The notes beneath the pieces are model-generated. The model ran no database searches and was not told the origin of the DNA. It was given only the letters and a program-made list of their open reading frames with translations. Of a stretch of 64,000 nt of DNA, positions 35,381 through 59,798 are shown one piece after another. This DNA is from Cellulophaga algicola DSM 14237 (GTDB lineage Bacteria; Bacteroidota; Bacteroidia; Flavobacteriales; Flavobacteriaceae): the NCBI RefSeq assembly GCF_000186265.1, contig NC_014934.1, forward strand, positions 3,348,001 through 3,412,000, in the 5' to 3' direction. The position numbers and the translations under genes are program-made. Within the stretch, counting starts at the first letter, position 1. Each line of letters begins with the position of its first letter.

Positions 35381-35423
35381 TGATCTTTATCATTTAGTAT
35401 GATCAAACTATAGTATACTTTTA
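35381..35423 (+). promoter_or_regulatory. Crp-type palindrome and -7 box of the pyruvate kinase gene
   Basis: TGATCTTTATCA (35381-35392), 23 nt spacer, TACTTTTA (35416-35423; one mismatch to TAnnTTTG). The IS target duplication ends only 13 nt upstream, so the IS replaced everything beyond this promoter while leaving it whole. Confidence 0.7.
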
Positions 35424-35451
35424 GTAAACAACTGTGCTAAAATTATATAAA

Positions 35452-36912
35452 ATGAAAGCTAAAGAAAATGTACTTAAGAAATTAGCAGAGATTCATAATC
35501 GGATGCTAAAAGCTGAGGACCTTAAAAAGGTACCTATTAACGAAGTAAAAGCACAGTTTCGTAATAGCGCAATTAATTTGGTTGATTATTTAGCTTTGCG
35601 TTCAGAAAATATTGAGATACTTCAAAAACAACTCCATACTATGGGCTTGTCATCCCTTGCTAGCAGCGAGAGCCATATTAAGACTCAAGTTATTAATGTT
35701 ATGGAACGGCTTGGCTATGAAAAAACTACAACTTATGAGATAAATGCCACTACTGGGTTCAAGCAATTACATCAAAATATAACCACTCTTTTAGGAAAAG
35801 CAGGAATAGGTAATGCGCCGCCAATAATGGTTACGTTTAGCAAGGATTTTGGTGAGGACTTTCAATTGATGTGCAACCTGTTGGAAAATGGTATGCAGGT
35901 AGCCCGAATTAATTGTGCCCATGATGATGAATTGATCTGGACTAAAATGATTGAAAATCTTAATAAGGCCGTTGCTAAAATGAACTTGCCTTGTAAGCTT
36001 TATATGGACTTAGCGGGCCCTAAAATACGGACGCAAATTATCAGCAAGAAAAATAAACAGGCCAAATTAAAAGTAGAATTAGGCGATAAAATTACGTTGA
36101 CTGATACCAAACAAAGAGGGGTAAAGGGAAAAAAAATAATACGATGCACGCTGCCTGGTATTGTAGAACAATTAAAGCCAGACCAACGTATTTATTTTGA
36201 TGACGGATTATTTGAAGCCGTGGTACACAGTGTTAATGATGCTCAAGCTACCCTTGAAATTGTTCGTATATCTAAAAAGAAACCAGTTATTAAAAGTCAA
36301 AAAGGCATAAATTTTCCAGATACCATATTTCGGATACAGCCTATTACCGATTATGACGAGAAGTGTCTGCCTTTCATTGTACAGCATGCAGATATGATAG
36401 GCTTTTCATTTGTAAACAATGCAGCGGATATAAAGGAATTACAAGAAAGGTTGAGGCGGTTAAATAAACCTGAACTTCCAATCGTTGCAAAAATTGAAAC
36501 CAACCAAGGGGTCAATAATCTTCCGGCTATTATTTTACAGGGAATGCAGCATAATCTTATAGGCATTATGATAGCTAGGGGAGACCTAGCGGTAGAAATT
36601 GGTTTTGAACGAATGAGTGAGATACAGGATGAGATACTATGGATTTGTGAAGCAGCACATACACCGGTTATATGGGCTACTCAAGTATTGGAAAGTATGA
36701 ATAAGCATGGATTGGCTACCCGTAGCGAAATAACCGATGCTGCACATGCTGCTGAAGCTGATTGTGTTATGATTAACAAAGGAGGACATACCGTAGAAGT
36801 GCTTAAAACATTACAAAATATATTAAGTAGAAGCCGTAAAAACAATTTCAAAAATAGGCGACTTTTCAGAAAGTTGTCTATTGCTGAGCAATTCATCTTA
36901 AAAGGGAAATAA
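35452..36912 (+). CDS. Atypical pyruvate kinase family protein, N-terminal extension and no C-terminal domain
   Basis: A 486-aa protein; I take the ATG at 35452 rather than an in-frame GTG at 35434. Residues 1 to about 115 form a helical extension not found in standard pyruvate kinases. The TIM-barrel and B domain follow: INCAHDD (in place of R-N-F-S-H), YMDLAGPKIRT, IVAKIET (catalytic Lys region), IMIARGDLAVE and ATQVLESMNKHGLATRSE. The protein ends soon after ADCVMINKG, so the C-terminal regulatory domain is absent. It probably makes pyruvate and ATP from phosphoenolpyruvate, though activity is not certain because several motifs deviate. It is followed after 12 nt by a P-type ATPase gene and is preceded by a Crp-type site. 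Confidence 0.85.
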   Translation: MKAKENVLKKLAEIHNRMLKAEDLKKVPINEVKAQFRNSAINLVDYLALRSENIEILQKQLHTMGLSSLASSESHIKTQVINVMERLGYEKTTTYEINATTGFKQLHQNITTLLGKAGIGNAPPIMVTFSKDFGEDFQLMCNLLENGMQVARINCAHDDELIWTKMIENLNKAVAKMNLPCKLYMDLAGPKIRTQIISKKNKQAKLKVELGDKITLTDTKQRGVKGKKIIRCTLPGIVEQLKPDQRIYFDDGLFEAVVHSVNDAQATLEIVRISKKKPVIKSQKGINFPDTIFRIQPITDYDEKCLPFIVQHADMIGFSFVNNAADIKELQERLRRLNKPELPIVAKIETNQGVNNLPAIILQGMQHNLIGIMIARGDLAVEIGFERMSEIQDEILWICEAAHTPVIWATQVLESMNKHGLATRSEITDAAHAAEADCVMINKGGHTVEVLKTLQNILSRSRKNNFKNRRLFRKLSIAEQFILKGK

Positions 36913-36924
36913 TAGCACTCATAT

Positions 36925-39591
36925 ATGACAACATTCAAAGATACCCTAGATATAATAGAAAATACGTATTCAAAAAAAGTGGATGTTATTGTAAACCTGC
37001 TTGATGTAGATCTAAAAACAGGCTTACAAGAAAGAAGTATTAATGACAGGATTGCAAAGTATGGCCTAAATAGTTATAGGGAGCAAAAGCAAAAAAGTAT
37101 TTTACTCATTTTATTTGAGCAATTTAAAAGTCCGATAATCTTATTATTAGTAGTAGCCGCTGGCTTCTCTTTTTTCTTTGAAGATTGGTTAGAAGGATTT
37201 TCTATTATTGCTGTAATTTTTATTACTGTAGTGTTGGGTTTTATTATGGAGTTACAAGCGCGTAATTCTATGAAGGCATTAAAGAAAATGGATGTAAGTG
37301 TTTCAAAAGTTTGGCGAGATAATTCCCTTAAAGAAATCCAAGCCGAAAGAATTGTACCTGGAGATGTGCTGGTATTAGAAGCGGGTGATATTGTAATGGC
37401 TGATGCAAGGTTAATAGAGGTAAATCAATTTGAAATTGATGAATCGGCACTTACAGGTGAATCATTACCGGTTGAAAAAAAGATTGAAGTCATAAAAAAT
37501 GAAGTGCCTCTTGCAGACAAAATTAATTTAATATTTAAAGGCACATCTGTTGTAAAAGGCAATGCTAGAGCCATTGTTACAGGTACAGGTGTGCATACAG
37601 AATTAGGGAAAATAACCCATATGGTTGCTACTGCAAAGCAGGGTGATACTCCACTAGAAAAGAAGATACAAGGGATTACAAAAATATTAATGGTGGTTAC
37701 TGCTGTATTTGCAGGTATATTTATAATAACAGGATTGCTGCAGGGTAAACAGTTTTATCTTATTGTAGAAACTGCATTAGCATTGGCTGTGGCAGCTATT
37801 CCGGAAGGGCTACCTGTGGTAAGTATAATAGCACTTACTTATGGCATGTTGCGCCTGGCAAAGAAGAATGTACTCATAAAAAGACTGGCATCTGTTGAAA
37901 CACTAGGCGGCGTTAATATTATTTTTACGGATAAAACGGGCACGCTAACAGAAAATAAAATTGATGTAAACAAGTTGATGTTTTTTGATGAAGACATAAC
38001 GATAGCTAAAAAAGGTGATGATAGTAGCATTGTAATTAACAAAAATAAAGGGGCCTATGAAAAGTTAATACTCATCTCTATTTTATGCAATAATGCTGCA
38101 AGTGAACAGAAAGAAAATAAGAAAAAATATTTAGGAGATCCTATTGAAATTGCACTATTACAATTTGTAAATACAAGCAAAGTAAATGTGGAAGCTATAA
38201 ACGCAACATATCCCCGTATAGCAGAAGAACCCTTTAATTCTGAAACAAAATTAATGGCAACTTTACATAAAAATAATGCAGGCAACTTTGTAGCAGCAAA
38301 AGGGGCTGTAGAAAAATTAATAGATACGTGTAGTTTTTATAGTGCAGGCGATAGGGTAATCCCTTTAACAGAGGCAGCAAAAAAAGACTTTTTAAATAGA
38401 GCAGAAACTATTGAAGCTCAGGGATCAAAAGTATTGGCATTTGCTTTTAAAGAAGCGGCCAATATCCCTACTACTAATTTTTTATCAGGCTTAACGCTTG
38501 TCGGTTTAATAGGGTTTTTAGACCCTCCACGAATGGAAGTTGTAGAGGCGTTACAATCATGTAGGAACGCAGGTATTAAGGTTATTATGATAACTGGAGA
38601 TCATCCTGCAACAGCACTTAATATTGCTGAAAAAATAAAGCTATCAGAAAAAGATAATGTTGTTATCAATGGTAAAGAATTAGATTCTAAATTATCAGAC
38701 AAAAAATTATTTGCTGCAACTATTTTTGCAAGAGTTACGCCAAAGCAAAAGTTAGCTATGGTAAGTTTTTATCAAAAACATGGCAGTATTGTGGCAATGA
38801 CGGGTGACGGGATAAATGATGCTCCTGCGTTAAAGAAAGCAGATATTGGTATTGCTATGGGCATACGGGGTACACAGGTAGCAAAAGAAACCGCTGCAAT
38901 GATTTTAAAAGATGATTCTTTTACATCTATCGTGACAGCCATTATGCAGGGTAGGGTAATTTTTAAGAACATAAAGAACTTTCTAATGTATCTGCTTTCT
39001 TGCAACCTTAGTGAAATATTTATTGTATTTTTTTATGGATTATTAAATTTTCCGTTCTCCGTACTTCCACTACAAATTCTCTTCCTTAATTTGGTTACAG
39101 ATATTTTTCCGGCACTGGCTTTAGGCCTTGGTAAAGGCAATGATTTAATTATGAAAATACCACCACGAAATCCGCAGCAGCCTATTGTAATTAAAAGAGA
39201 TTGGTTTACTATAAATGTGTATGCGGTATTATTGGCATTACCTATTCTACTGGTAACTTGGTATTGTAGCCACTATTTAAAGTACGATGCAAAATTATGC
39301 AACAACATTACCTTTTTTAGTCTTGCTTTATCGCAACTATGGCATGTCCTAAATTTACCTTCCCGTAAAATATCATTTCTAAACAATGAAATTACCCGTA
39401 ATAAATTTACCTGGGCTGCCTCATTGCTTTGTATCAGTATAATGGCTGTATTTTATTTCGTTAGTCCGCTTAATAACTATATAGGGCTTCAAAAATTGAG
39501 TATAGACACGTGGTTAATAATAACTTTTACGAGTATGACGCCAGTTTTTTTAATTCAACTTTTTAAGAGGATTTTTAAGATTATTGATTGA
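36925..39591 (+). CDS. Cation-translocating P-type ATPase, calcium type (P2)
   Basis: An 888-aa P2-type ATPase. In order: N-terminal cation ATPase domain, TM1-2, actuator motif LTGESLPVEKK, TM4 with the calcium-type PEGLPVVSI, phosphorylation site FTDKTGTLTEN, hinge TGDGINDAPALKKADIGIAMG, and TM5-10 including LFLNLVTDIFPALALG. The PEGL and NLVTD motifs favour Ca2+ over Na+/K+ transport. It exports the cation across the cytoplasmic membrane. It is cotranscribed with the pyruvate kinase (12-nt gap) and so falls under the same Crp-type promoter. Confidence 0.92.
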   Translation: MTTFKDTLDIIENTYSKKVDVIVNLLDVDLKTGLQERSINDRIAKYGLNSYREQKQKSILLILFEQFKSPIILLLVVAAGFSFFFEDWLEGFSIIAVIFITVVLGFIMELQARNSMKALKKMDVSVSKVWRDNSLKEIQAERIVPGDVLVLEAGDIVMADARLIEVNQFEIDESALTGESLPVEKKIEVIKNEVPLADKINLIFKGTSVVKGNARAIVTGTGVHTELGKITHMVATAKQGDTPLEKKIQGITKILMVVTAVFAGIFIITGLLQGKQFYLIVETALALAVAAIPEGLPVVSIIALTYGMLRLAKKNVLIKRLASVETLGGVNIIFTDKTGTLTENKIDVNKLMFFDEDITIAKKGDDSSIVINKNKGAYEKLILISILCNNAASEQKENKKKYLGDPIEIALLQFVNTSKVNVEAINATYPRIAEEPFNSETKLMATLHKNNAGNFVAAKGAVEKLIDTCSFYSAGDRVIPLTEAAKKDFLNRAETIEAQGSKVLAFAFKEAANIPTTNFLSGLTLVGLIGFLDPPRMEVVEALQSCRNAGIKVIMITGDHPATALNIAEKIKLSEKDNVVINGKELDSKLSDKKLFAATIFARVTPKQKLAMVSFYQKHGSIVAMTGDGINDAPALKKADIGIAMGIRGTQVAKETAAMILKDDSFTSIVTAIMQGRVIFKNIKNFLMYLLSCNLSEIFIVFFYGLLNFPFSVLPLQILFLNLVTDIFPALALGLGKGNDLIMKIPPRNPQQPIVIKRDWFTINVYAVLLALPILLVTWYCSHYLKYDAKLCNNITFFSLALSQLWHVLNLPSRKISFLNNEITRNKFTWAASLLCISIMAVFYFVSPLNNYIGLQKLSIDTWLIITFTSMTPVFLIQLFKRIFKIID

Positions 39592-39935
39592 GATAAAAAA
39601 AAACAGTATAGATAGCATGTTTAAATTAGGGTATAAGGGGGCAAAGAAAATGAGTGCAGCAACAAAGGTTTCATCTAATTTTAAAGATAATAAAATGTTT
39701 TACATCGGGGGCTAAAGCTAAAAACATGATAATGGTCATGTTTCTATAAGGGCAACCATCATACATTTGTTAAAAGCGCATATGACCCCTTTCTTATTAA
39801 AGATAATCCGAGTACCATTTTTACTCAACTATTTGAGCTTAGCACATGTATGTGTTTTATTTAACTTAATCCTGCATAGGAGTCCTTCCTTTTTCCTTAA
39901 TTTAGTCCATAACGTAAACTATTACCCTACAGTGA
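39592..39935. other. Intergenic region upstream of the LOV kinase
   Basis: 344 nt. It holds a Crp-type palindrome and -7 box at 39727-39769 and a predicted 5' leader of about 160 nt. CTCAACTATTTGAG, an inverted repeat, lies inside that leader. Short frames at 39617 (32 codons) and 39781 (55 codons) are not convincing genes. Confidence 0.7.
39727..39769 (+). promoter_or_regulatory. Crp-type palindrome and -7 box of the LOV kinase/regulator operon
   Basis: TGATAATGGTCA (39727-39738), extended on both sides as AACA...TGTT, then 23 nt, then TACATTTG (39762-39769), an exact TAnnTTTG. It precedes the kinase by about 170 nt and suggests autoregulation. Confidence 0.75.
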
Positions 39936-42900
39936 ATGGTAGATAAAATTAAAGATAACGAACTCTTCAAGGGTATATTTGAATCTTCAATAGAAGGTAT
40001 TTTGGTAGTAGACCAAGAGGGTAACATTATCAAGGCGAATCCTTCAATAGATAAAATGTTTGGTTATGAACCAGGAGAATTGGTACATAAAAAAGTAGAT
40101 GACCTTATTCCTCCTCATTATGGGAAATCTCATGAAAACCATAGAAAAGGTTTTGGAAGAAAACCTGTAACGAGAATTATGGGTAAGAGGGGAGATATAT
40201 GGGGACTTAAAAAAAATGGATTACAAATTCCTTTAGAAATAAGTTTGAGTCCAACCGAAATAAGTAGTGAGAATTTAACGGTAGCATTTGTAATAGATAT
40301 TTCCGATCGATTATTGACTCAGAAAAGTACGGCAGCTAATGCTCAAAAAATGAATGAAGCCCAAAGTCTGGCTCATGTTGGTAGTTGGGTATGGAATCTG
40401 CAAACAAATGAGAGAAGTTGGTCAGATGAGTTCTATAGAATATGTGGCCTGCCAGTGGGTGATGAGCGACTTACTGCCAAAACGGCCTCCAAATTTATTC
40501 ATCCGGATGACCAACAAAATGTATTAGCTTCCGTAGATTATGCCATTAAAAATTGTACTCCTTATTCTAATAAAAAAAGAATAATTAGAGCAGATGGTAC
40601 AGTACGCCATATTATGGCTCATGGTAAAGCATCTTATGATCTCTATGGGAAGCCTTTGGAGTGGTTTGGAACCATACAAGATGTTACGGAACAAAAAGAA
40701 ACGGAACAACAGCTAGAGGAAAACCTAGCTAAGAATAAAGCTTTGTTAGGCGCGCTTCCGGATATGATGTTTATCTTAAACCATGAAGGTAAATTTCTTG
40801 ATTGCTATGCCCCAGAACCAGAAAAATTGTTTGCAGCACCGGCTACCTTAATAGGTGGTTATATAAACGAATTATTGCCTAAACATATTTACGAGGCAGT
40901 ACGTAAAGGAATGGATAAAACCATTGAGAGTGAAGAAATTCAGTTTGTTGAATATGATTTTGAGGTAAAAGGGGGGAGGCAGTTTTATGAAGGTCGTATT
41001 GTTCCAATGGATAAAAATAGGCTTTTGACTATTATTAGAGATATAACGGCAGAGAGAGTTATAGAGAACATACTATATGTGCGCAACCGTGCTTTAGCAG
41101 CCACAGCGAACGGAATTATTATTTGTGATGCCCAACAACCCGACTTTCCAATTATCTATGGTAATGAAGCCTTTACAAAGATTACAGGGTACGAAAAAGT
41201 AGAATTTATGGGTCAAAATTGTCGTTTCTTACAAGGTGATGATACCGATCAGATTGAAATTAAAAAAATGTCTGCCGCCATAAAAAAAGGAGAAGACTGC
41301 CGTGTGGTATTGCGTAACTATAGAAAAGATGGTTCTTTATTCTGGAATGAAATCAGTATTACATCCATATACAATACTAAAAAAATACTGACGCATTATG
41401 TTGGGGTGCAAAATGATGTTACCGCTCATAAAATACAAGAATTTTTTAAAATTGGGCAATCCCATGTTATGGATATGATTATTCAACATAAGCCATTGAA
41501 AACCATCGCCTATAAAATTATCGAAACCATAGAAACGGCTATTCCAAACTGTCAAGGTTCCATTCTTTTGTTGGATCAGAAATCTGATAAATTAAAAAAA
41601 TTAGCAGCGCCAAATCTATCGGAAAGGTATACGAAAGCTATAGAAAAGATGTTTCTTAGTCCAGAAAATGGATCTTGTGGTACGGCGGCATATTTAAAAA
41701 AAGAAGTAATTGTTTCTGATACCCTTAATGATCCGTTATGGGAAGCTTTTAGAGAATTAGCAATTAAAGATAATATTAAAGCATGTTGGTCCTTTCCAAT
41801 ATTTTCATCAAATAAAGAATTATTAGGAACCTTTGCAATTTATTTACCTGTTTCTAGAAAACCACTTGATACTGAAAAAGAAATTATAAATATTATAACG
41901 CAGGCCATAAGTGTGGCCATTGACCAGCACAATGAAGGCGTTGCTTTAAAAGACAGTAGGCAAGAATTAGCTGCTTATGCTGAAGCACTAGAACATAAGG
42001 TTGCCGAACGAACTGTTGAGTTAAAGGATATAGTACAGAAGCTGGTAGAGTCTAATTTGAGCTTTGAAGATCAAATTCAGATTACAAAGACAGCGGAAAA
42101 TAATGCCATTGCTAGTCAAAAATTATTGGATACTATTTTTAAGAATTTTCCAAGAGGTTTCGTAGGCGTTTTAGATTTGAATCTGTCAGTTGTTTTTATT
42201 GAAGGTGAAGATTTAGACGTAGTTGGTTTTAGGGATGCAATCCAAGTTGGTGCTACAATTGATGAATTAAGGCAAGTACCTATTGAATTAAAGAAAAACG
42301 TTAAGAAAAACATACAGAAAACATTGAAAGGAGAACACTGCTCTTTTGAAGTAAAAGTTAAGGGAATATCATATTTGGTAAACACTACGCCGTTGTTTAA
42401 TGAAAATCATGAGGTTATACAAGCTTTACTTGTTTACAATAATATTTCTGATCAAAAAAGAGTAGAAGTTGAAATCCGGAATACATTGCAAAAAGAAAAA
42501 GAGCTCAACGAACTTAAATCTCGTTTCATTTCCATGGCCTCTCATGAATTTAGAACGCCATTAAGTACTGTACTTTCTGCTACGAATCTTATTGAACGCC
42601 AAAATGAAGCAGGTCAAGAAGAAAAAAGAATAAAATATATAAGTAAGATAAAGACTAGTATAAAAAACTTAGTGGGTATACTCAATGATTTTTTATCTTT
42701 AAGTAAGCTAGAAGAAGGGAAAGTCATAGCGCAGCCTATTTTATTTGATTTTGTTGAATTCTCAGATGCTTTAGTGGAAGAGCTTCAAGGCATTAAGAAA
42801 ACTGGTCAGGAAATGGCCATTGTCTATAGTTCATATAGTATACAAGTGCAGCTAGACCCAAAACTATTAAGACACATTGTACATAATTTATTGACGAATG

Positions 42901-43187
42901 CTATAAAATATTCTGAAGAAAATACAAAAATACTCCTTATAATAAGTACTAAGAATAAGAAACTTTTCATTGAAGTTACAGATCAGGGTATCGGAATACC
43001 CGATGAAGATCAAGGCTATTTATTTCAACGTTTTTATCGCGCAAAAAATGCGACCAATTTTCAAGGTACTGGTTTAGGATTGAATATTGTACAACAGTAC
43101 GTCCTGCTAATGCGCGGGAATATTAGCTTTCAAAGCAAACTTAATCATGGTACAACTTTTATTGTAGAACTCCCTTTAATCTATTGA
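39936..43187 (+). CDS. LOV/PAS/GAF hybrid-input sensor histidine kinase
   Basis: A 1083-aa soluble histidine kinase with no transmembrane segment. Order: PAS1 (about 8-125), PAS_3-type PAS2 (about 140-255), PAS3 (about 265-375), a LOV domain (about 385-505), GAF (about 515-665), coiled coil with VAERTVELKD, a divergent PAS (about 725-840), HisKA with phosphoacceptor His870 (MASHEFRTPLS) and a HATPase_c domain (NAIKYSEENT, DQGIGIP, GTGLGLNIV). The LOV domain has the full flavin signature: GQNCRFLQ with photoactive Cys429, RNYRKDG and FWN asparagines, and YVGVQ. It should sense blue light through FMN and phosphorylate the REC-Crp regulator encoded 3 nt downstream. The other inputs are unknown. 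Confidence 0.92.
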   Translation: MVDKIKDNELFKGIFESSIEGILVVDQEGNIIKANPSIDKMFGYEPGELVHKKVDDLIPPHYGKSHENHRKGFGRKPVTRIMGKRGDIWGLKKNGLQIPLEISLSPTEISSENLTVAFVIDISDRLLTQKSTAANAQKMNEAQSLAHVGSWVWNLQTNERSWSDEFYRICGLPVGDERLTAKTASKFIHPDDQQNVLASVDYAIKNCTPYSNKKRIIRADGTVRHIMAHGKASYDLYGKPLEWFGTIQDVTEQKETEQQLEENLAKNKALLGALPDMMFILNHEGKFLDCYAPEPEKLFAAPATLIGGYINELLPKHIYEAVRKGMDKTIESEEIQFVEYDFEVKGGRQFYEGRIVPMDKNRLLTIIRDITAERVIENILYVRNRALAATANGIIICDAQQPDFPIIYGNEAFTKITGYEKVEFMGQNCRFLQGDDTDQIEIKKMSAAIKKGEDCRVVLRNYRKDGSLFWNEISITSIYNTKKILTHYVGVQNDVTAHKIQEFFKIGQSHVMDMIIQHKPLKTIAYKIIETIETAIPNCQGSILLLDQKSDKLKKLAAPNLSERYTKAIEKMFLSPENGSCGTAAYLKKEVIVSDTLNDPLWEAFRELAIKDNIKACWSFPIFSSNKELLGTFAIYLPVSRKPLDTEKEIINIITQAISVAIDQHNEGVALKDSRQELAAYAEALEHKVAERTVELKDIVQKLVESNLSFEDQIQITKTAENNAIASQKLLDTIFKNFPRGFVGVLDLNLSVVFIEGEDLDVVGFRDAIQVGATIDELRQVPIELKKNVKKNIQKTLKGEHCSFEVKVKGISYLVNTTPLFNENHEVIQALLVYNNISDQKRVEVEIRNTLQKEKELNELKSRFISMASHEFRTPLSTVLSATNLIERQNEAGQEEKRIKYISKIKTSIKNLVGILNDFLSLSKLEEGKVIAQPILFDFVEFSDALVEELQGIKKTGQEMAIVYSSYSIQVQLDPKLLRHIVHNLLTNAIKYSEENTKILLIISTKNKKLFIEVTDQGIGIPDEDQGYLFQRFYRAKNATNFQGTGLGLNIVQQYVLLMRGNISFQSKLNHGTTFIVELPLIY

Positions 43188-43190
43188 AAT

Positions 43191-44258
43191 ATGAAAAAAA
43201 TACTACTTATTGAAGACAATCTTGATGTTCGCGAAATGACTGCAGAAATTCTTGAACTTGAGAATTATGAAGTGGCTACGGCAGAAAAAGGTAAGATTGG
43301 TATAGAAAAAGCAAAATCATTTGCACCAGATCTAATTTTATGTGATATAATGATGCCTATAATGGATGGTTATGAAGTTTTTGAACAATTGAGTAAAGAT
43401 CATAGCACAGCTAGCACCCCTTTTATTTTTTTAACCGCTAAATCAGAAAGGTCAGATTTACGTAAGGGAATGACTATGGGTGCCGATGATTATTTAACCA
43501 AGCCTTTTGAAGCGCAAGATTTAATAGAAGCTATAGAAGCACGTATAAAGAAAACTTCTTTTTTACGTAAAGAATTTTTAAGAAATGTTCAAGGCATTAA
43601 TCAATTTATTAAGGAAGCCTCAAAATATCAAAATTTAAAAGATCTTTCTGAAGACCGAGAATTAAATCAATATAAAGTAAAAGAGAATATCTTTTCAGAG
43701 AATAGTATAGCTCAAAATTTATACTTTATTCAGCATGGAGAAGTAAAGACTTATAAACATAATGAAAATGGAAAAGAGTATGTTACCGGCATGTTTGCAG
43801 CTGGCGATTTTATAGGTCAGCTTTGCGTTTTAGGCAATTCTGGTTTGTATACAGAAACAGCTGTGGCACTTAGTGATTGTGAGGTGTGTTGTATTCCTAA
43901 GAAAGATTTTACCCAACTTTTGTTCAATAATAAAGACGTATCAAACAAATTTATAAGTATGATCTCTAACAATGTTTTACATATGCAAAATCAATTAATG
44001 GGTATGGCTTTCGATTCTGTACGGAAAAGGGCTGCTACCGCATTGTTAGAATTATATGACAAAGGGCTTATTAAAGATGATGATTTAGGTATCAATATCT
44101 CAAGAGAAGATTTTGCAGGGCTAATAGGTACTGCCACGGAGACAGCCATACGTGTTCTTTCAAGCTTTAAAGATCAAAGTTTAATTCAATTAGGGCAGTC
44201 TCGTAGAATTATACTTACAGATAAAAAATTATTACAGCAAGTTGCAGATTTTGGATAG
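43191..44258 (+). CDS. Response regulator fused to a Crp/Fnr-type transcription factor (REC-cNMP_bd-HTH_Crp)
   Basis: A 355-aa regulator with a receiver domain (1-120; phosphoacceptor Asp52 in LCDIMMP, LTAK and TKPF), a cyclic-nucleotide-binding-type beta-roll (about 150-270; AAGDFIGQLCVLG) and a C-terminal winged helix (about 285-345). The recognition helix reads TATETAIRVLSSF; its E-T-x-x-R pattern is the one Crp and Fnr use to read TGA half sites. No N-terminal FeS cysteine cluster is seen, so it is not a classical Fnr. It starts 3 nt after the LOV kinase and is surely its partner. It is the best candidate to bind the TGA-N6-TCA palindromes found across this island. Confidence 0.92.
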   Translation: MKKILLIEDNLDVREMTAEILELENYEVATAEKGKIGIEKAKSFAPDLILCDIMMPIMDGYEVFEQLSKDHSTASTPFIFLTAKSERSDLRKGMTMGADDYLTKPFEAQDLIEAIEARIKKTSFLRKEFLRNVQGINQFIKEASKYQNLKDLSEDRELNQYKVKENIFSENSIAQNLYFIQHGEVKTYKHNENGKEYVTGMFAAGDFIGQLCVLGNSGLYTETAVALSDCEVCCIPKKDFTQLLFNNKDVSNKFISMISNNVLHMQNQLMGMAFDSVRKRAATALLELYDKGLIKDDDLGINISREDFAGLIGTATETAIRVLSSFKDQSLIQLGQSRRIILTDKKLLQQVADFG

Positions 44259-44426: not shown

Positions 44427-44451
44427 ATTATTATTATTATTATTATTATTT
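44427..44451. repeat. Trinucleotide (ATT)n microsatellite
   Basis: About eight ATT units at the 3' end of the YtxH gene. Read on the minus strand they are repeated TAA codons, so the gene ends in a series of in-frame stops. Confidence 0.9.
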
Positions 44452-44775
44452 ATGTAGATGAGCATTTTTCTTTCTAAGATCTTCTAATTTACGTTCTAAC
44501 GTGGCGATGATGTCATCTGCCTTATAACTCATAGTACTAATGACTTCTTCTATTTTTTGTTCAAAGTCTACTTTCTTTTTATTTGCTGTCTCTGTAAGTT
44601 CATCCTTGGCGTTAGATAGATAATCTTTTAGGTCGTATTTGGCATTTAAAGCTTTGTTTTTAATTTTATGTCTAGTTTCAATCCCCTTTTCAGGAGCATA
44701 TAATATTCCAATGCCTGCGCCTATTGCAGTACCAGTTAATAATGCCAGAAGAATATTCCCTTTATCATTTGCCAT
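44446..44775 (-). CDS. YtxH domain-containing stress protein
   Basis: A 109-aa protein with an N-terminal Gly-rich hydrophobic helix (ILLALLTGTAIGAGIGILYAPEKG), the YtxH signature, followed by a long charged amphipathic helix. Members are membrane-anchored and often induced by general stress. It is transcribed from the divergent region 44776-44937, where a Crp-type palindrome sits at the right distance from a TAAATTTG box. It is followed by tandem stops from a microsatellite. Confidence 0.88.
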   Translation of the reverse strand: MANDKGNILLALLTGTAIGAGIGILYAPEKGIETRHKIKNKALNAKYDLKDYLSNAKDELTETANKKKVDFEQKIEEVISTMSYKADDIIATLERKLEDLRKKNAHLHK

Positions 44776-44811: not shown

Positions 44812-44885
44812 CAAATTTAATCCCATTATTTTTTTTATAGCATGACCTAGATCAGGAATATTGAGCTTATGTCCTTGTAATTTAG
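44812..44885. promoter_or_regulatory. Shared divergent Crp-type palindrome with two -7 boxes
   Basis: TGACCTAGATCA (44843-44854). Minus direction: 23 nt to TAAATTTG (44812-44819, exact) for the YtxH gene. Plus direction: 23 nt to TAATTTAG (44878-44885, one mismatch) for the gene at 44938. One bound regulator could activate both. Confidence 0.7.
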
Positions 44886-44937: not shown

Positions 44938-45420
44938 ATGAACATCCCAAAACCAGAACAAAAACAAGTTTTCCTAAAACCATATGGTCAAATTTTAGAG
45001 TTAGAAAATGCTCTTAAATTGATTCATCAAATGGATTTTAATAAAATAGCCATATCGGTTATTGGTATCCTTGAAGGCAACTATAAGAATAATCCTAAAG
45101 ATTTAGAATTTATAGAGATTAAGTTAACTCTCTTTTTTAAAAAAATATTAGGGCAAAATACTGAATTTAGTACTTTTTACAATCCTGAATTAGGTCGTTT
45201 GTTTGTAGCCGGATTTTTAGTTCCAACATTTCTTAACCCGGTAGGCAGAAAAGCTATTGGAGTGCTTTCTGGTGGACCTTATGGAATTTTAAGAGGACTT
45301 GGAGTGAGTGAGGAACAAGCAGGGGCTAGTGTTAAAAAATTAATCGATGGAACCTTTTTTTTAGTTGCTAGAGGAGACCGTTTAGATATAGAAAAATTAG
45401 AAAATACATTGACTGATTAA
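44938..45420 (+). CDS. General-stress-like protein (resembling the YflT/GSP17M end)
   Basis: A 160-aa soluble protein. I do not recognise the N-terminal 100 residues. The C-terminal part (GGPYGILRGLGVSEEQAGAS, then FLVARGDRLDIEKLENTL) resembles the Gly-rich helix and closing strand of YflT/GSP17M-type general stress proteins. The gene lies opposite the YtxH gene with a Crp-type palindrome between them, which supports a stress-related role. The family match is tentative. Confidence 0.55.
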   Translation: MNIPKPEQKQVFLKPYGQILELENALKLIHQMDFNKIAISVIGILEGNYKNNPKDLEFIEIKLTLFFKKILGQNTEFSTFYNPELGRLFVAGFLVPTFLNPVGRKAIGVLSGGPYGILRGLGVSEEQAGASVKKLIDGTFFLVARGDRLDIEKLENTLTD

Positions 45421-48025: not shown

Positions 48026-48068
48026 TAAAAGTATAGCGTTTTGATCACAATTCTCCTGACCTAAGTCA
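48026..48068 (-). promoter_or_regulatory. Crp-type palindrome and -7 box of the aldehyde dehydrogenase gene
   Basis: TGACCTAAGTCA (48057-48068), within the larger palindrome CCTGACCTAAGTCAGG, is 23 nt from TACTTTTA (48026-48033 on the minus strand; one mismatch to TAnnTTTG). Confidence 0.72.
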
Positions 48069-48271: not shown

Positions 48272-48748
48272 TTATTTTAAATGTGAACGCAACATCCAAG
48301 CTGTCTTTTCATGCTGTTCCATTAATCCTGTAACATAGTCGCTTATGCCATCTGCTTTCCATTTTTTTGCAATAGGTTTTATCTCTTCTCTAATATGAAT
48401 AATAATACTTTCATGGTCTTCTAACAATTCTGAAAATATGCTTTTACTATCATTTTTACCTTTTGTTTTTTCGGTAAGATGAGTCAATTGAGAATAGTCC
48501 TTTAACGTTGCAGGCACATAATGACCTATTGCACGTATTTTTTCAGCTACGGTATCCACAACCTCTTGTTGTTCTTGATATAAGGTTTCTAGATATAGGT
48601 GTACTGAATGAAAATCTGGACCTTCAATATTCCAATGGAAATTCAGCGTTTTTGAATAAAGAACAAATTCATCTGCTAATATTTTTGATAACTGGTCTGC
48701 GATAGCTTGTCTGTTTTCTTCTGAAATACCTATGTTTGGTGTTTTCAT
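48272..48748 (-). CDS. dps: Dps family ferritin-like protein
   Basis: A 158-aa Dps protein of standard length, forming a dodecamer that oxidises iron with hydrogen peroxide and protects DNA. The ferroxidase-site ligands lie in FHWNIEGPDFHSVH and the following DTVAEKIRAIG stretch, as in other Dps proteins. The regulatory region carries a Crp-type palindrome at the fixed distance from a perfect -7 box, pointing to stress control. A terminator follows. Confidence 0.94.
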   Translation of the reverse strand: MKTPNIGISEENRQAIADQLSKILADEFVLYSKTLNFHWNIEGPDFHSVHLYLETLYQEQQEVVDTVAEKIRAIGHYVPATLKDYSQLTHLTEKTKGKNDSKSIFSELLEDHESIIIHIREEIKPIAKKWKADGISDYVTGLMEQHEKTAWMLRSHLK

Positions 48749-48776: not shown

Positions 48777-48819
48777 CAAAGGTATTTTGATTAAAAAGTG
48801 TGTACACTGATATAGATCA
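48777..48819 (-). promoter_or_regulatory. Crp-type palindrome and -7 box of dps
   Basis: TGATATAGATCA (48808-48819), 23 nt, TACCTTTG (48777-48784 on the minus strand), an exact TAnnTTTG. The box is 29 nt before the dps ATG. Confidence 0.78.
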
Positions 48820-52500: not shown

Positions 52501-54441
52501 TTAATGCGTAAGCTCTTTAGCCCAGCCTTTAAGTTTTTCTAACTGTTCGGTTAAAAAAGAATCATGCTGCTCTTCGTCTTCTACTCCTTCAGGTAAAATA
52601 TGTTCAAAGTAGGTATTTTTTAATACCCGTTTTAAAACACTTTCTCCAGGAAAAGGTTTGTAATCGTTTAAAGCTTTAGCTGCTTTCAATAGTTGACGAA
52701 TGTCATACTGACCAGCAGCAATATCAGGCACTTGCTTGTTAAGGTTTAGCAATTTGTAAACAGCTATTCTAGCAGTTCTAATCGAAGCATCTACGGTAAA
52801 CACCACATCATTATGTGTTTCTACAAACTGTCCTACAAGCCCTAAATTCTTAGAGCCATTTGGTACAACTTCTGGCCTGTCTCCTGCTGCTCTAGGCATA
52901 AACATTGAGGTTATGTAGGGCATGAAGCTGGTTTTTACAATAGTATTTTTTATAATAGTAGCTATTTGATCTTCTAATCCAATATGAAAACATAACTCCG
53001 CTAATACTTCATTACCAGTACATTGTGGCATTGTTTTTTTACTGTAGTTACCGTTTTTATCCATAAATAAAGCATACACCCATATCACCAGAATGTCATC
53101 TGGTTGTTCAGGAAAGTGCGGTTGGCGATTAATGGTAAAACTCATTAACCAGTTAGAGTCTGTTATAGTGACAATCCCTCCGGTTGCTGATTTTCCAGAA
53201 TAAGGGTCGTTTACACAGTATTCTTTTATTTTTTCTGTGAAAGCTGATGGGCGACACGTTAATGTTGCAGACTCCCAAGAAGATTTTTTAACAGAACTGT
53301 AGAACTTTTCAGGTTTACCAAATTCAATAGATTTTGTAGCTAAGTTTTTCCATAACTGCCATCCGTCACTTTCACCACTTTTTATATCATCAATAGCTAC
53401 AATAGGTGCATTTATATTATCGCCATAATGGGTGTCTTCTGTCATAGAACCTGTGGTAACAATTACAAAATCGTTTTCAGTTACAGCGATGGTTACTTCT
53501 TTATCTTCTTGTTGGGTAATTATACCTTTAACTACTTTACCTTCTGTGTTTATTTGTACCTCTAAATCTTTAACGAAGGTGTTGAACTGAATTTTAACAC
53601 CTTTAGATTTTAGATGATCTGTCAACGGTTTTACGAAGGTATCATGCTGATTGTATTTAGGAAATACCAAGCATGATAGATCATTAAAACCATCAATACG
53701 GTGTAAAAATCGGTGCATATATAATTTGCACTCTAGTAAACTATGCCAGTTTTCAAAGGCGAACATGGTACGAAATAAAGTCCAGAAATTACTTTTAAAA
53801 AATGAGTCACTAAAATAACTTTCTACGGTAACATCATCTAGCTCTTCTTTCTTTTTTAGTAAAAGTTTTACGATGGCTAATTGATCTAATTTATCTAGGC
53901 CAAATTTACTGAAATCTTGTATTTCCCCATTATTATGAATTAATCTAGCTTTTGAGTAATTAGGATCATTATCATTTAATAAACGAAATTCGTCTAAAAC
54001 ACTATACGGAGCAGGCATTTCTAAGGCAGGTATATCTTGAAAAATATCCCATAAATTCTCATAGTTCATTTCCAGTTCCCTACCACCTCTTATAAGGTAG
54101 CCATCTTTAGCATTTCCTGAGCCATCTAAAGAACCGCCTTCAATAGCTATTTTGTCAAGAAAAATTATATTTTCTCCGGGAATGTGCCCATCACGTATAA
54201 AGTAATATGCAGCAGATAGGCCTGCAATACCTGTTCCTACTATATAAACTTTACTGTCTTTAAAAGATTTAGAGGGTATACCTTTGTTACGTTGGTAGTT
54301 TCCTTTAAGATCAGCAAAAGGCATGGGTTGATCTTTAGAATTACGTACTACTTCTTTGCTAGCATCTGGAGCATGATCTATATGCCCTGGGAATGGTGAT
54401 GCATTTAATACTTTGTCGAATTTTTCTGTTATTTTTCCCAT
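52501..54441 (-). CDS. ohyA: Oleate hydratase (Glu-type)
   Basis: A 646-aa FAD-dependent fatty-acid hydratase, of typical length for the family. The dinucleotide-binding motif [17 protein letters not shown] is followed by [15 protein letters not shown], which holds the catalytic-type Glu of the classical RGGREM motif. It adds water to the cis-9 double bond of oleate, giving 10-hydroxystearate; in bacteria this is linked to detoxifying or modifying unsaturated fatty acids at the membrane. It starts 90 nt behind the HdeD gene. No close Crp-type site was found. Confidence 0.92.
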
Positions 54442-55622: not shown

Positions 55623-55728
55623 TATTCCTGTGATTTTATCCTGAATTTCCGAAATTTTGGAGTAAGGTTTATAAATATTTGATTTACTATTTATGGCATT
55701 AATACTTTGAGGCTAACGCTTTGAGTAT

Positions 55729-57330
55729 TTAATGAAAAGCTTTCATTACTGTTTCTAGTTCTACCTTAACACTTTTATCAAATTTGGTTATTGGCGGAAT
55801 TTCAAGATCAAGATCTAGTAACTCATACATGGCCATCTGAGCGGCTCTAATGGAATATTCTACTGTAAAAACTACATCATCTGGAATCTCTACAAACTGA
55901 CTAATAAATGCTAAGTTTTTTGAGTTTTTAGGTACAGGAAGTGGTCTGTCTGTTTTTAACCGCGGCATGAACATACTGGTGATATATGGCATTCTACAGG
56001 GTATACATATTGCATTTGCAAAAACAACATCATAGTCGAATTTTAGATGCCCCGCAAGTTCTCTAAGAATCTCTTCTCCAGAGCATTCTGTCATCGGTTT
56101 ACCAACAAAATTACCAACGCGGTCAGGGTGTAATCCGTAAGTAAAAAATACCTGAACATCTGATGGTTGATCTTTATAATGAGGTTGTTGATTTAATGAA
56201 AAACTCATAAACCAATTAGAGTCTTTTAAGGTTACCTGGCTTCCGGTTCCTGCTTTATTACCAGAGAATTGCTCCATTTGGTCAAAGAAAGCAGTGTCTT
56301 TTAAGGTTACCGTAAAAGACTCCCAGAACGATTGTGATATGTTAGAATTAAACACTTCAGGTCTACCAAATCCAGGATATTTATTCGCTAGTTTTTCCCA
56401 TAAGGCCCATCCTTGGCTATCTTCTTTTGTAAAGTGTTTTGGTGCGCTTGTCATGGATCCGTAGCTAGAAGCATCGGTCATGGAACCATTTTGATAGAAT
56501 ACTAAATCGCCATCATTGATTGTTATGGTTTCTTTATTTTCTTTGTTTTCATAAACAAGGTTTTTTACAACTACTTTTTCTGTTCCTGTATTTTTATCCA
56601 AACCATACTCGGTATCTAAATCTGTTACCGTACTTTCTTGTAAAAAGTTTACACCATGAGATTTAAGCCAAACTTGTAAAGGAAGAACCATAGAGTCATA
56701 CTGGTTGTAGATGGTACGTTTAACTCCCGTCATTGTTTCTACATTTGGAAACTCCTGCATAAATCTATGTAGGTAACGTTTAAACTCTACAGCACTGTGC
56801 CATGGAGAGAATGCAAAACTTGTGCGCCACATAAACCAAAAATTGGTTTCAAAAAAGGAAGGAGAAAACCAATCGTAAATAGAACTATTCCCTAGTTTTT
56901 CTTCACTAGCCTCGCTAAGCTTAAGAAGTTCTGCTCGGTTGGCCATAGAAAAGCCAAGTTTAGATGAATCTACAATTGCGCGATTCTTGTCAATGAGACG
57001 TGCTTTGGAGTTTGATTTTATACGTTCATTAAAAGCAACCGTTTCTTTATATACCGAGGTGTTAGGATCTGTAAGTGATGGTATGGTATTAAACAAAGCC
57101 CAAGTACATTCGTAAATATTTAGGGTTAGCATACGTGAGCCACGTAAGGTATAGCCTTGTTCAGCATTTCCTCCAGCATCTAAACTACCGCCTAAAACGG
57201 GTAAACTTTCAAAAATTGTAATATTATTTCCAGCTACTCCGCCATCGCGAATTAAAAATGCAGCACCAGCAAGTGATCCTATGCCGCCACCTATGAAGTA
57301 TGCTTTTCTATCTTTATTTTGAATATCCAT
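55729..57330 (-). CDS. Oleate hydratase-like FAD protein (Met-type)
   Basis: A 533-aa paralogue of the oleate hydratase at 52501, shorter by about 110 residues, mainly at both ends. The FAD motif is GGGIGSLAGAAFLIRDG. The position of the catalytic Glu reads RGSRMLTLNIYE, with Met in place of Glu. Other conserved blocks (WRTSFAFSPWHSAVEF, QYDSMV, NGSMTDASSYGS) are kept. Family members with Met here are known to be active from Rhodococcus, as monomers, so this is likely an active hydratase of another subgroup. Its promoter has a Crp-type palindrome and a 5' leader of roughly 175 nt. Confidence 0.88.
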   Translation of the reverse strand: MDIQNKDRKAYFIGGGIGSLAGAAFLIRDGGVAGNNITIFESLPVLGGSLDAGGNAEQGYTLRGSRMLTLNIYECTWALFNTIPSLTDPNTSVYKETVAFNERIKSNSKARLIDKNRAIVDSSKLGFSMANRAELLKLSEASEEKLGNSSIYDWFSPSFFETNFWFMWRTSFAFSPWHSAVEFKRYLHRFMQEFPNVETMTGVKRTIYNQYDSMVLPLQVWLKSHGVNFLQESTVTDLDTEYGLDKNTGTEKVVVKNLVYENKENKETITINDGDLVFYQNGSMTDASSYGSMTSAPKHFTKEDSQGWALWEKLANKYPGFGRPEVFNSNISQSFWESFTVTLKDTAFFDQMEQFSGNKAGTGSQVTLKDSNWFMSFSLNQQPHYKDQPSDVQVFFTYGLHPDRVGNFVGKPMTECSGEEILRELAGHLKFDYDVVFANAICIPCRMPYITSMFMPRLKTDRPLPVPKNSKNLAFISQFVEIPDDVVFTVEYSIRAAQMAMYELLDLDLEIPPITKFDKSVKVELETVMKAFH

Positions 57331-57509: not shown

Positions 57510-57552
57510 CAAAATTATGGATAGATGAGAGAGGGAAGCCTGACTTAGATCA
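57510..57552 (-). promoter_or_regulatory. Crp-type palindrome and -7 box of the Met-type oleate hydratase gene
   Basis: TGACTTAGATCA (57541-57552) with CC on the left and GG on the right, 23 nt, TAATTTTG (57510-57517 on the minus strand), an exact TAnnTTTG. The distance to the ATG is about 180 nt. Confidence 0.75.
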
Positions 57553-57878
57553 GGTACCAAAAAAAAATGTGTTTCTAGTTTTATTTTATAGCGTGATTTT
57601 TTTTAGAAATAGTACAGGCAACTGCACTTACCTTAAAGTCTAATAAAATATTTTTTTGAGTAGTCTTTACTGCAACTGTTTTTTTGGTAGCGTTATACCA
57701 ATTTCGTAGTGTTCTGTGATTGCAATTACAGTAAAAATCTATTATTAGTTTTTTCTACCATAATAGGAACGTTAAATTGGTCATGAGAAAAGCTACTATT
57801 AAAGAAATTAAATAGTATATCATTTTACTATAATAAAAGTGATTATTAGTATTGGTAAGGCTCTTTGTAACAACCAAA

Positions 57879-57911
57879 AACGTCCTCAAAACCTAAGTTG
57901 GCGAGGACGTT
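57879..57911 (-). terminator. Terminator of the AhpD-like / coiled-coil unit
   Basis: Stem AACGTCCTC (57879-57887) and GAGGACGTT (57903-57911); on the minus strand it is followed by a T run (TTTTT). It lies 53 nt past the stop of the coiled-coil gene. Confidence 0.7.
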
Positions 57912-57964
57912 ATAAGTTAAAAAAATATAGGAGGACATTTTAAATGCAACCCTATATGAATCAA

Positions 57965-58348
57965 TTACATGTATTTAGATAAGAATTTAAAGAACTCTTT
58001 TTTTAGATCTGCATAAATTTGGCGTTGCGTTTCCATTTTTTCACGAAGTTCTAGGTGGTTTTTTACCATGGCTACATCCATAGATTCGTGATTTGCATCA
58101 CTGTGGGCAGATATACTCATTTCATGTTCCTCAATCGTTTCTTCCATATCTTCTATTACTCCTTCATGAAGAAGAAATTCATTTTGAAAATGCTCTAACT
58201 GTGCAAGTACCTCTTTATCTGTCCAACGAGTTACTAGTTCCGCTAATCTGTTTTTGAAAGATTTTAATTCATCATTCCAAAATTCAAGTTCAGATTTCCA
58301 TAGTTTGTGTTCAAAATGTAAATCTGAATTGTAAATTACTTCTTTCAT
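57965..58348 (-). CDS. Hypothetical coiled-coil protein, paralogue of the 60666 gene
   Basis: A 127-aa soluble, all-helical protein. The opening LWKSELEFWNDELKSFKNRL is matched by HWKSDLLFYRDDLKFLRHLE in the 143-aa protein at 60666, and both continue with a long helix pair with Glu/His-rich segments (ETIEEHEMSISAH here). No domain is recognised. It lies 25 nt after the AhpD-like gene and shares its Crp-type promoter. Confidence 0.7.
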   Translation of the reverse strand: MKEVIYNSDLHFEHKLWKSELEFWNDELKSFKNRLAELVTRWTDKEVLAQLEHFQNEFLLHEGVIEDMEETIEEHEMSISAHSDANHESMDVAMVKNHLELREKMETQRQIYADLKKEFFKFLSKYM

Positions 58349-58373
58349 AATATTTTATTTTTTAATTATATAT

Positions 58374-58727
58374 CTAGTTGTCTTCTAATATTGCAAATTG
58401 ATTTAAGGCTTCTAACGCTTCGCAACCGTACATGAGTGCAGGACCTCCGCCCATCATGACCGCCACACCTATGGTTTCTATAATTTCTTCGGATAGTGCT
58501 CCAGACTTTATTGCGTCGCGAACATGAAATGCAATACACCCATCACAACGAACCGTAATAGCAATACCTAAGGCAATGAGTTCTTTTGTTTTTGAAGAAA
58601 GCACACCTTCGGCAGTACTGGCTTTATGCAGACTGTTAAAACCCTCTATGGTTTCTGGTATTTTAGTGCCCAGTTCTTTTATGAGTCGCGAAAGGTCATT
58701 ATACTGTTTTGAGTGGTCTTTAATCAT
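58374..58727 (-). CDS. AhpD/carboxymuconolactone decarboxylase family protein
   Basis: A 117-aa alpha-helical protein with the AhpD-type signature RCDGCIAFHVRDAIKSGA, containing CxxC and the nearby His, followed by EEIIETIGVAVMMGGGPALMYG. Such proteins are disulfide-based alkylhydroperoxidases that act with AhpC-type peroxiredoxins; the peroxiredoxin at 51872 is a possible partner. It has a Crp-type promoter with an exact -7 box. Confidence 0.9.
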   Translation of the reverse strand: MIKDHSKQYNDLSRLIKELGTKIPETIEGFNSLHKASTAEGVLSSKTKELIALGIAITVRCDGCIAFHVRDAIKSGALSEEIIETIGVAVMMGGGPALMYGCEALEALNQFAILEDN

Positions 58728-58790
58728 GATTTCATGTTTTAAAAGTTTAAAATGTTTTGAAGAATTTTTCTAATATGCCTAAAACATATT

Positions 58791-58833
58791 CAAAGTTATT
58801 TTAAATCGTCAAGGGTAAACATGATTTAAATCA
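58791..58833 (-). promoter_or_regulatory. Crp-type palindrome and -7 box of the AhpD-like gene
   Basis: TGATTTAAATCA (58822-58833, a perfect palindrome), 23 nt, TAACTTTG (58791-58798 on the minus strand), an exact TAnnTTTG. Confidence 0.78.
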
Positions 58834-58974
58834 GTACTCTAAAAAAATTATAGTAATCAAAATATAGCTTGGACAAAAAATGCTTTTTGCGGCTATAAGT
58901 ATAAGCCAAGCAAGGTGTAACATGCTTTTTTTGATAGGATTTTTTTTTGTTGGTTTTTAATTTAATTTAACAAC

Positions 58975-59017
58975 TGACCCAAGTCATCTTAAAACTCCTA
59001 AGGCAAATATACCTTTG
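58975..59017 (+). promoter_or_regulatory. Crp-type palindrome and -7 box of the WG-repeat gene
   Basis: TGACCCAAGTCA (58975-58986), 23 nt, TACCTTTG (59010-59017), an exact TAnnTTTG. It lies back to back with the AhpD-like promoter, 142 nt apart. Confidence 0.76.
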
Positions 59018-59041
59018 GATGAACACAAAAAACAATTAGAA

Positions 59042-59701
59042 ATGAAACGCTTATTTATTATTACGTTATTGTTATCAATACCTATGATAGGTATTTCACA
59101 AACACTAGAAGAGATTAATACACCTACGGTTGCAAGATTAGATCAAATTGGATCTTTTAGTGAAGGTTTAGCAGCCGTTAAAAAAGGCAATGAATGGGGT
59201 TTTATTGATGAAGATGGAAAACTAGTTATTGGTTTTCGAGGAGATGTAGTTTGGAATACAACACCTAATACGGCTAAGCTTGGAATTGAAGGTCTTAGTT
59301 ATCCTCAATTCAAGAATGGCCTTTGTTCAATAAAAGTTGTAAAAGAAGATGGTATTACCCGATATGGTTTTATGAATAAAAAAGGGACTATAGTTATACC
59401 AGCAGAATTTTTAAACGTAAGTCAGTTTAATGATGGTTATGCCGTAGGTATCTACGAAAGCAAGACCCTACGCGGAAAAAATCCATTTCAATTGCGGATT
59501 TATCAATATGATTTCACGGAAGTAGTCGTAAATACAGTTGGCGAAATGTTATGGCCAATACAGGAAAGACAAGGTATAGTCATGTCAAAAAAACTATATG
59601 AGTTACCTGAAATACATGCCGCTATGATTTCAAAAAAGCTATTAATGGTAAAAGACAAGGCTAATACATGGAACATTGTAAAGCCTAAACTTCAAAATTG
59701 A
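59042..59701 (+). CDS. Secreted WG-repeat protein
   Basis: A 219-aa protein starting at the ATG at 59042 (MKRLFIITLLLSIPMIGISQ is the signal peptide); an in-frame ATG at 59015 would fall around the transcription start predicted from the -7 box at 59010-59017. Three WG-type repeats are visible: EGLAAVKKGNEWGFIDEDGK, an ITRYGFMNKKGTIVIPAEF-like second, and a degenerate third. WG repeats form a beta-propeller-like or beta-strand module of unknown function. It is exported to the periplasm or surface. Confidence 0.82.
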   Translation: MKRLFIITLLLSIPMIGISQTLEEINTPTVARLDQIGSFSEGLAAVKKGNEWGFIDEDGKLVIGFRGDVVWNTTPNTAKLGIEGLSYPQFKNGLCSIKVVKEDGITRYGFMNKKGTIVIPAEFLNVSQFNDGYAVGIYESKTLRGKNPFQLRIYQYDFTEVVVNTVGEMLWPIQERQGIVMSKKLYELPEIHAAMISKKLLMVKDKANTWNIVKPKLQN

Positions 59702-59755
59702 AGCAATTGCTCATGTGCTTAGAAGATTTGGTGCGCTAAACAAAACAATAGCTCA

Positions 59756-59798
59756 TGATTAGCTTCATAGCGTATATGAAAATCTAAAATTAAATTTT
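59756..59798 (+). promoter_or_regulatory. Crp-type palindrome and -7 box of the universal stress gene
   Basis: TGATTAGCTTCA (59756-59767), 23 nt, TAAATTTT (59791-59798; one mismatch to TAnnTTTG). Weaker than the others because the palindrome's inner bases are imperfect. Confidence 0.6.

Follow-up and report, generated by a model that had tools for sequence, protein, structure and literature searches.

The 64,000-nucleotide (nt) stretch of the Cellulophaga algicola DSM 14237 genome considered here (positions 3348001-3412000 of a single contig of 4,888,353 bp; hereafter the window) contains a series of genes preceded by a recurrent promoter-like element, in which a TGA-N6-TCA palindrome is followed after a 23-nt spacer by a TAnnTTTG box, the -7 promoter element of Bacteroidota. 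Among these genes are those for a sensor histidine kinase and for a response regulator that joins a receiver to a Crp-type output (REC-Crp), with the open reading frame (ORF) of the kinase ending 3 nt upstream of that of REC-Crp (Table 1).

Table 1. Palindrome-box sites and associated genes in the window (window coordinates)
Feature	Coordinates	Strand	Remarks
Palindrome TGATCTTTATCA, 23 nt, box TACTTTTA	35381..35423	+	10 nt 5' of the listed pyruvate-kinase ORF start
Pyruvate-kinase-like protein	35434..36912	+	Pfam PF00224
P-type cation ATPase, 3' of pyruvate kinase	36925..39591	+	Pfam; best NCBIfam models Ca-transporting, below cut-off
Exact site, palindrome TGATAATGGTCA, box TACATTTG	39727..39769	+	Before the kinase/REC-Crp pair
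Sensor histidine kinase	39936..43187	+	FixL/DosP-like PAS (His66), further PAS, LOV, GAF, HisKA, HATPase
REC-Crp response regulator	43191..44258	+	REC 4-116, cNMP-binding-like 160-247, HTH_Crp_2 280-350
Exact site	44812..44854	-	For YtxH-like gene 44446-44775
Palindrome of the preceding site reversed, one-mismatch box TAATTTAG	44843..44885	+	52 nt before ORF 44938-45420
Site with box TACTTTTA	48026..48068	-	For aldehyde dehydrogenase 46570-47973
Exact site	48777..48819	-	For Dps-like ferritin 48272-48748
Exact site	57510..57552	-	For MCRA (oleate-hydratase) family gene 55729-57330
Palindrome of the preceding site reversed, box TAGTTTTA	57541..57583	+	Possibly chance
Exact site	58791..58833	-	For carboxymuconolactone-decarboxylase-family (CMD) gene 58374-58727
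Exact site	58975..59017	+	For WG-repeat protein 59015-59701
Weak site, palindrome TGATTAGCTTCA, box TAAATTTT	59756..59798	+	For universal stress protein 59840-60625

Sites in the window and across the genome

All nine palindromes named in the original prediction are present together with their boxes, of which six match TAnnTTTG exactly (39762+, 44812-, 48777-, 57510-, 58791- and 59010+) and three have one mismatch (35416, 48026 and 59791). They occupy eight intergenic regions rather than the nine originally counted, as the palindromes at 58822 and 58975 lie in a single region. The rest of the window had been described as free of the combination in the intergenic regions examined; this holds for the exact matches, all six of which were already listed, but a single one-mismatch match is found at 29836+. 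The further claim that so constant a spacing is hard to ascribe to chance is borne out by comparison with 300 dinucleotide shuffles, in which exact matches averaged 0.027 (maximum 1) against the six of the window, and matches with at most one mismatch averaged 1.05 (maximum 5) against 12. The latter comprise the nine listed sites, the second orientations at 44843+ and 57541+, and 29836+. At two mismatches there is only a small excess, with 24 matches against a mean of 16, a count reached by four of 100 shuffles; hence single weak sites are not to be trusted. Those at 59756, the weakest palindrome (TGATTAGCTTCA), which retains only the outer TGA/TCA, and at 57541+ may be chance matches.

Across the genome the exact motif occurs 24 times, and the same pattern read backwards twice. 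When the spacer is allowed to vary from 8 to 38 nt there are 90 matches against 52 for the reversed control, and 24 of the 90 fall at 23 nt, while the other 30 spacings together account for 66 (mean 2.2, largest 6). A Poisson value of 3e-17 for this peak serves for orientation only. An accidental alignment of common AT-rich words might be argued from the two-mismatch count of the window, which is close to background, and from the 52 reversed matches obtained with a free spacer; however, the exact-match and spacing statistics, the 24 to 2 ratio against the reversed pattern at 23 nt and the conservation across genera described below refute it for the site group as a whole, and leave it a vanishingly small probability.

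The prediction of a local regulon had to be modified, as the system is both genome-wide and clustered. In a stretch of 184 kb around the window, 13 of the 24 exact sites are found where 0.9 would be expected, and the remaining 11 lie elsewhere. The relaxed pattern TGAYN4RTCA-23-TAnnTTT gives 21 sites in the same 184 kb, four in a second cluster of 40 kb (2.21-2.25 Mb) and one in 240 kb of control stretches. That the 184-kb stretch was delimited after the hits had been seen weighs against reading the local enrichment at face value. A purely local system is rejected on account of the outlying exact sites and of a second site group elsewhere, at HemN-like, ccoNO and Usp-like genes (Usp, universal stress protein). 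A motif equally frequent near unrelated genes, the outcome that would have spoken against the proposed regulon, was not seen in the genome scan, in which the system extends beyond the window.

The relaxed pattern identifies 32 sites in the genome, none of which was flagged as lying inside an ORF longer than 450 nt, and in 28 cases an ORF begins no more than 350 nt further downstream. The exceptions are 57541+, 2228751+, 658752- and 3492769-; at 2228751 a listed Crp ORF begins within the site itself. The box at 59010 overlaps the listed TTG start of the WG-repeat gene, whose translation more likely begins at an ATG further downstream. Targets in and near the window include the genes for pyruvate kinase and the P-type ATPase, the kinase/REC-Crp pair, and those for YtxH, aldehyde dehydrogenase, a Dps-like protein, MCRA/oleate-hydratase, CMD and WG-repeat proteins, an alternative F-type ATPase operon, MlaE, ClC and a further Crp protein, with palindrome centres that mostly read YYA. 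The targets elsewhere have mostly A/T-rich centres and comprise six Usp-like genes, thioredoxin, a UbiB-like kinase, a HemN-like radical-SAM protein, the cbb3 oxidase genes ccoNO and an apparently Fnr-like Crp gene. Of these, the Usp, thioredoxin, UbiB and HemN-like names are presumptive, being partly drawn from resemblance to typical sequences. One locus (L040:7062-19515) has genes for a cbb3 oxidase, FixG, a HemN-like radical-SAM protein, Usp, a P-type ATPase for metals and a Crp protein of the Fnr-like kind with a CxxC motif; several of these genes carry 23-nt sites.

Two further features of the window were noted. Directly before the first site (35381), matches to an ISL3-like transposase extend over two overlapping short ORFs (34477-34914 and 34847-35326; together 34477-35326), a remnant of a broken insertion element. 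Two MCRA (oleate-hydratase) family genes (52501-54441 and 55729-57330) lie within 5 kb of each other.

Conservation of the spacing in related Bacteroidota

A search for related loci recovered 79, of which 57 encode a relative of REC-Crp (1.13 Mb in total), with the other 22 serving as the comparison. In the former, with spacers of 10 to 40 nt allowed, 56 sites had a spacer of 23 nt, 12 had one of 22 nt and no other length was seen more than four times. Sites at 22 or 23 nt occur in 48 of the 57 loci, whereas the 22 comparison loci have none at either spacing. Among 149 genomes of the family, 66 have a REC-Crp match at E<=1e-60, and 11 of these, the C. algicola genome included, have one with at least 54% identity. 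Stretches around the gene in the 10 other genomes with an ortholog of the window protein (REC-Crp1) contain 42 sites at 23 nt and at most two at any other spacing, and 20 stretches around a paralog (REC-Crp2) contain 25 at 23 nt and at most one at any other. Two of the family genomes (G001 and G129) probably repeat two of the named loci (L056 and L060). Of the 67 sites near REC-Crp1 or REC-Crp2, 65 precede an ORF of at least 80 aa that starts within 247 nt, 48 of them at a distance of 12-46 nt. The site before the kinase gene can be aligned between the window and seven relatives, with TGA, GTCA and the TA--TTTG of the box retained in all eight and a mean column identity of 67%; its spacer is 23 nt in six and 22 nt in two from Maribacter. 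The class II Crp/Fnr geometry of the original prediction is thus strongly supported by a single preferred spacing both genome-wide and in related genomes.

The genes downstream of these sites differ between the two settings. Near REC-Crp2, 16 of 24 are Usp genes and two are of the ribosome-hibernation type, while the 41 near REC-Crp1 include four for kinases, four for CMD, three each for HSP20 and YtxH, and two each for PfkB, patatin, AhpC and Usp.

The matches listed from a scan of the phylum, leaving aside those of C. algicola itself, comprise 111 rows and come from nine genomes belonging to the same class or family; the spacer is 23 nt in 33 of them, 24 nt in 13, and any other given length in at most six. 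Crp-type promoters for which this REC-Crp is absent thus have an almost identical spacing. One genome (G203) has several TGATTTTAATCAT-type palindromes at 24 rather than 23 nt, possibly for another Crp paralog with the register shifted by one base. In a locus of Cyclobacterium qasimii (L059), although this genus is not flavobacterial, the REC-Crp protein is 80% identical to that of the window over residues 1-267, its kinase has a LOV domain and the promoter site is the same as well; this likeness may reflect horizontal transfer or a misassigned contig.

The conserved geometry also bears on how the sites might act. Real operators used for repression or another form of modulation, rather than for class II activation, could be envisaged given that two palindromes lie between divergent boxes, each flanked on both sides by a box at 23 nt. 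A single rigid distance between palindrome and box instead fits activation from the position of the upstream element. An additional -33 TTG element is rejected, as it is not enriched: in the 32 sites of the genome it occurs once at 17 nt and never at 15, 16 or 18-22 nt, and in the 56 sites of the REC-Crp loci four, two and one times at 18, 19 and 21 nt, in both cases about background. This lack of excess fits an activator that replaces the upstream element, and operators of a repressive or modulatory kind are accordingly rated as quite improbable.

The REC-Crp protein, its paralogs and the adjacent kinase

The window REC-Crp is 84-85% identical to proteins of Zobellia. Its receiver (PF00072) has the phosphoacceptor Asp in the motif CDIMMP, and its output part belongs to the Crp/Fnr family, with PF00027 (cNMP-binding-like) and PF13545 (HTH_Crp_2) over the cut-off and the CRP and FixK2 structures matched; it is not a helix-turn-helix domain of the LuxR/NarL type as in FixJ and DosR. 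A PDB search recovered no chain matching both halves of the protein among the 60 of 334 matches listed. In CRP, Glu72, Arg82 and Ser83 are residues that bind the phosphate of cAMP; the aligned residues in REC-Crp are Q, Y and T. Control by cAMP is rejected for a protein without these contact residues.

Part of the palindromes of the window follow a narrower pattern, TGAYYTARRTCA. Six sites of the C. algicola genome match TGAYYTARRTCA-23-TAnnTTT, and the 11 genomes that carry a close ortholog of REC-Crp1 together have 34 hits, versus 68 in the 138 others. With C. algicola excluded, the 10 remaining REC-Crp1 genomes have 28 hits and each has at least one, versus 46 of the 138 others. Of these 28 hits, 19 lie within 35 kb of the REC-Crp1 gene where 0.48 would be expected, and they do so in nine of the 10 genomes; in the exception (G011) all three hits are on a contig other than that of REC-Crp1. 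The assignment to REC-Crp made by the original prediction therefore appears likely for the TGAYYTARRTCA sites, by co-occurrence and proximity, and for these the window protein is, by association, the best candidate.

Several observations weigh against extending this assignment. The TGAYYTARRTCA pattern was derived from sites of the window itself, for which reason the C. algicola genome was left out of the proximity test, and of the nine listed palindromes it fits no more than four (44843, 48057, 57541 and 58822). The site before the REC-Crp operon itself (TGATAATGGTCA) is not among them. A YYA centre is found in 14 of 42 sites near REC-Crp1 and in two of 25 near REC-Crp2. The genome encodes nine HTH_Crp_2 matches, eight of them over the cut-off; six of the eight proteins are encoded either in the 184-kb stretch or at the second cluster, and by eye six share the recognition helix T-E-S/T-x-x-R. 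A genome with no REC-Crp at E<=1e-60 (G127) nevertheless has at least four 23-nt sites among the 17 matches listed. Together with the 23-nt sites at HemN-like, ccoNO and Usp-like genes, these points would fit a system in which the sites mainly answer to a Crp paralog, Fnr-like or otherwise (L025 at the cbb3 cluster, L031 or REC-Crp2), and in which the window REC-Crp plays a small part or is simply one of the targets. Against this speak the presence of the TGAYYTARRTCA pattern in every other REC-Crp1 genome with its concentration close to the gene, and the absence of a wider palindrome, TGAYYYARRTCA, from the 40-kb second cluster and the 240 kb of control stretches; control mainly by a paralog is considered rather unlikely. 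The sites beyond TGAYYTARRTCA are not divisible among REC-Crp1, REC-Crp2, the Fnr-like protein and others.

A second kinase/REC-Crp pair is encoded at L038:4157-7100 (genome positions 3476157-3479100), adjoining PfkB, P-type ATPase and Usp-like genes, and its kinase has a His-bearing PAS domain (by eye) and a LOV motif.

The kinase adjacent to REC-Crp was extracted in 55 of the 57 named loci (L090 and L105 being those without). No membrane segment was noticed on reading the window kinase by eye. Its first PAS domain has 15 PDB matches, the best being a multi-sensor kinase and the others seven FixL, four DosP, one heme PAS sensor, YddU and one other sensor protein; a Dyadobacter kinase likewise matches best the same multi-sensor kinase (2e-13) and FixL (1e-12). 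The proximal (F-helix) His is present in all 54 rows with the domain from the named loci, the window included, and in 21 of 25 kinases of a further set encoded near REC-Crp. These features suggest that the first PAS domain likely binds heme and oxygen. In the single Dyadobacter locus inspected, the order site, HemN-like radical-SAM gene, kinase and REC-Crp is found downstream of a FixG-type gene, an arrangement that again points to oxygen. A LOV domain occupies about residues 384-502, with the flavin-adduct Cys in the motif NCRFLQ, and could add a blue-light input in some lineages.

The heme and oxygen reading is not certain because the distal Arg, a residue with a known role in FixL and DosP, is not kept, being replaced by Gly in the window kinase and by His in Dyadobacter. 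Further points against it are that two Maribacter kinases align at the PAS domain only as a fragment, and that among the 25 kinases two have another residue in place of the proximal His and two are not properly aligned there. The LOV motif is confined to five of the 57 named loci and eight of the 25 kinases, and is thus missing in most loci. For these reasons the signal is uncertain, with oxygen or redox state as the probable input.

A candidate dormancy circuit and its relation to known systems

Taken together, the palindromes would be operators of dimeric activators of the Crp/Fnr type. The centre of the dimer would lie 29.5 bp 5' of the first base of the -7 box, corresponding to about -41.5 if transcription starts a few nt past the box, and the bound dimer would replace the upstream promoter element and recruit RNA polymerase to TAnnTTTG, as in class II activation. 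For the window, REC-Crp is the likely activator; it could be switched via phosphorylation by the adjacent kinase, would act as FixJ and FixK within a single protein, and probably controls its own operon. It would turn on a set for dormancy or low-energy survival, comprising the Dps-like protein, aldehyde dehydrogenase, YtxH, the oleate-hydratase-like protein and the CMD protein, with pyruvate kinase, the alternative F-type ATPase, Mla, ClC and Usp as probable further members. The paralogous kinase/REC-Crp2 pair and the Fnr-like protein may act through sites of this geometry at the Usp-like, HemN-like and cbb3-oxidase genes. As deduced from sequence, the reading favored here as probably correct is class II Crp-type activation in which REC-Crp, as a phosphorylation-controlled equivalent of FixJ plus FixK, serves some of the genes of a dormancy and low-energy regulon, and its paralogs work with the same layout. 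More tentatively, it is possible that Bacteroidota possess a one-step dormancy and low-oxygen circuit, in which a kinase with a heme-like PAS domain and LOV (sensing gas or redox state and blue light) signals to REC-Crp as a FixJ-FixK fusion and thence to TAnnTTTG promoters, with paralogs sharing this layout so that different signals compete for one type of operator.

To our knowledge, few Bacteroidota promoters with a defined activator geometry have been described. Among the matches listed in searches of the open-licence literature, neither this geometry nor this regulator is described in any title or abstract opening. The 23-nt spacing, standing out as it does across many genera, provides a precise rule for Crp/Fnr-activated promoters in Bacteroidota. 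It also brings to the fore a candidate master regulator for stress and for survival at low energy in members of the phylum from sea and soil, and a two-component system that may act directly via a Crp-type domain, possibly joining oxygen and light input.

At the class II promoters of Escherichia coli, CRP and FNR act from -41.5 with TATAAT as the core element. The sites described here share with them a dimer palindrome of the TGA-N6-TCA type whose centre is 29.5 bp 5' of the first base of the core element, but differ in that the core is the Bacteroidota -7 box, used by another polymerase holoenzyme. Within the phylum a comparison is offered by Cur (BT4338) of Bacteroides, which presumably has no receiver domain. 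It is described as a Crp-family activator with predicted autoregulation and a target promoter with a putative -7 consensus (PMC6989115, PMC3878776). It differs in its palindrome, TATGTTnTAnAACATA, and in its targets, which relate to carbohydrates and carbon limitation. A scan for the geometry of its sites in 118 genomes of the phylum gave three matches, with spacers of 31, 18 and 25, a result that weighs on neither side.

A dormancy regulon for comparison is that of DosR/DevR (PMC5069765). The DosR regulon contains Usp, Hsp20, PfkB and P-type ATPase genes, a likeness to the present system, and DosR itself is a response regulator of the NarL/LuxR type that recognizes another box. The lxa locus of Burkholderia cenocepacia (PMC6127331) resembles the present system in its clustered Usp genes together with heat-shock protein and phosphofructokinase genes. 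The output of DosR is of the NarL/LuxR type, in contrast to the Crp-type output seen here. The FixLJ-FixK system of rhizobia is a further comparison (PMC9104804, PMC7888657). Common to it and the present system are a PAS kinase resembling FixL, a Crp/FixK-type activator, and genes for cbb3 oxidase and HemN-like proteins that lie near similar sites or under their control. In contrast to that system, the kinase here is without the distal Arg of FixL and has a LOV domain in several genomes, and the receiver and the Crp-type output are combined in one protein, so that there is no separate fixK step.

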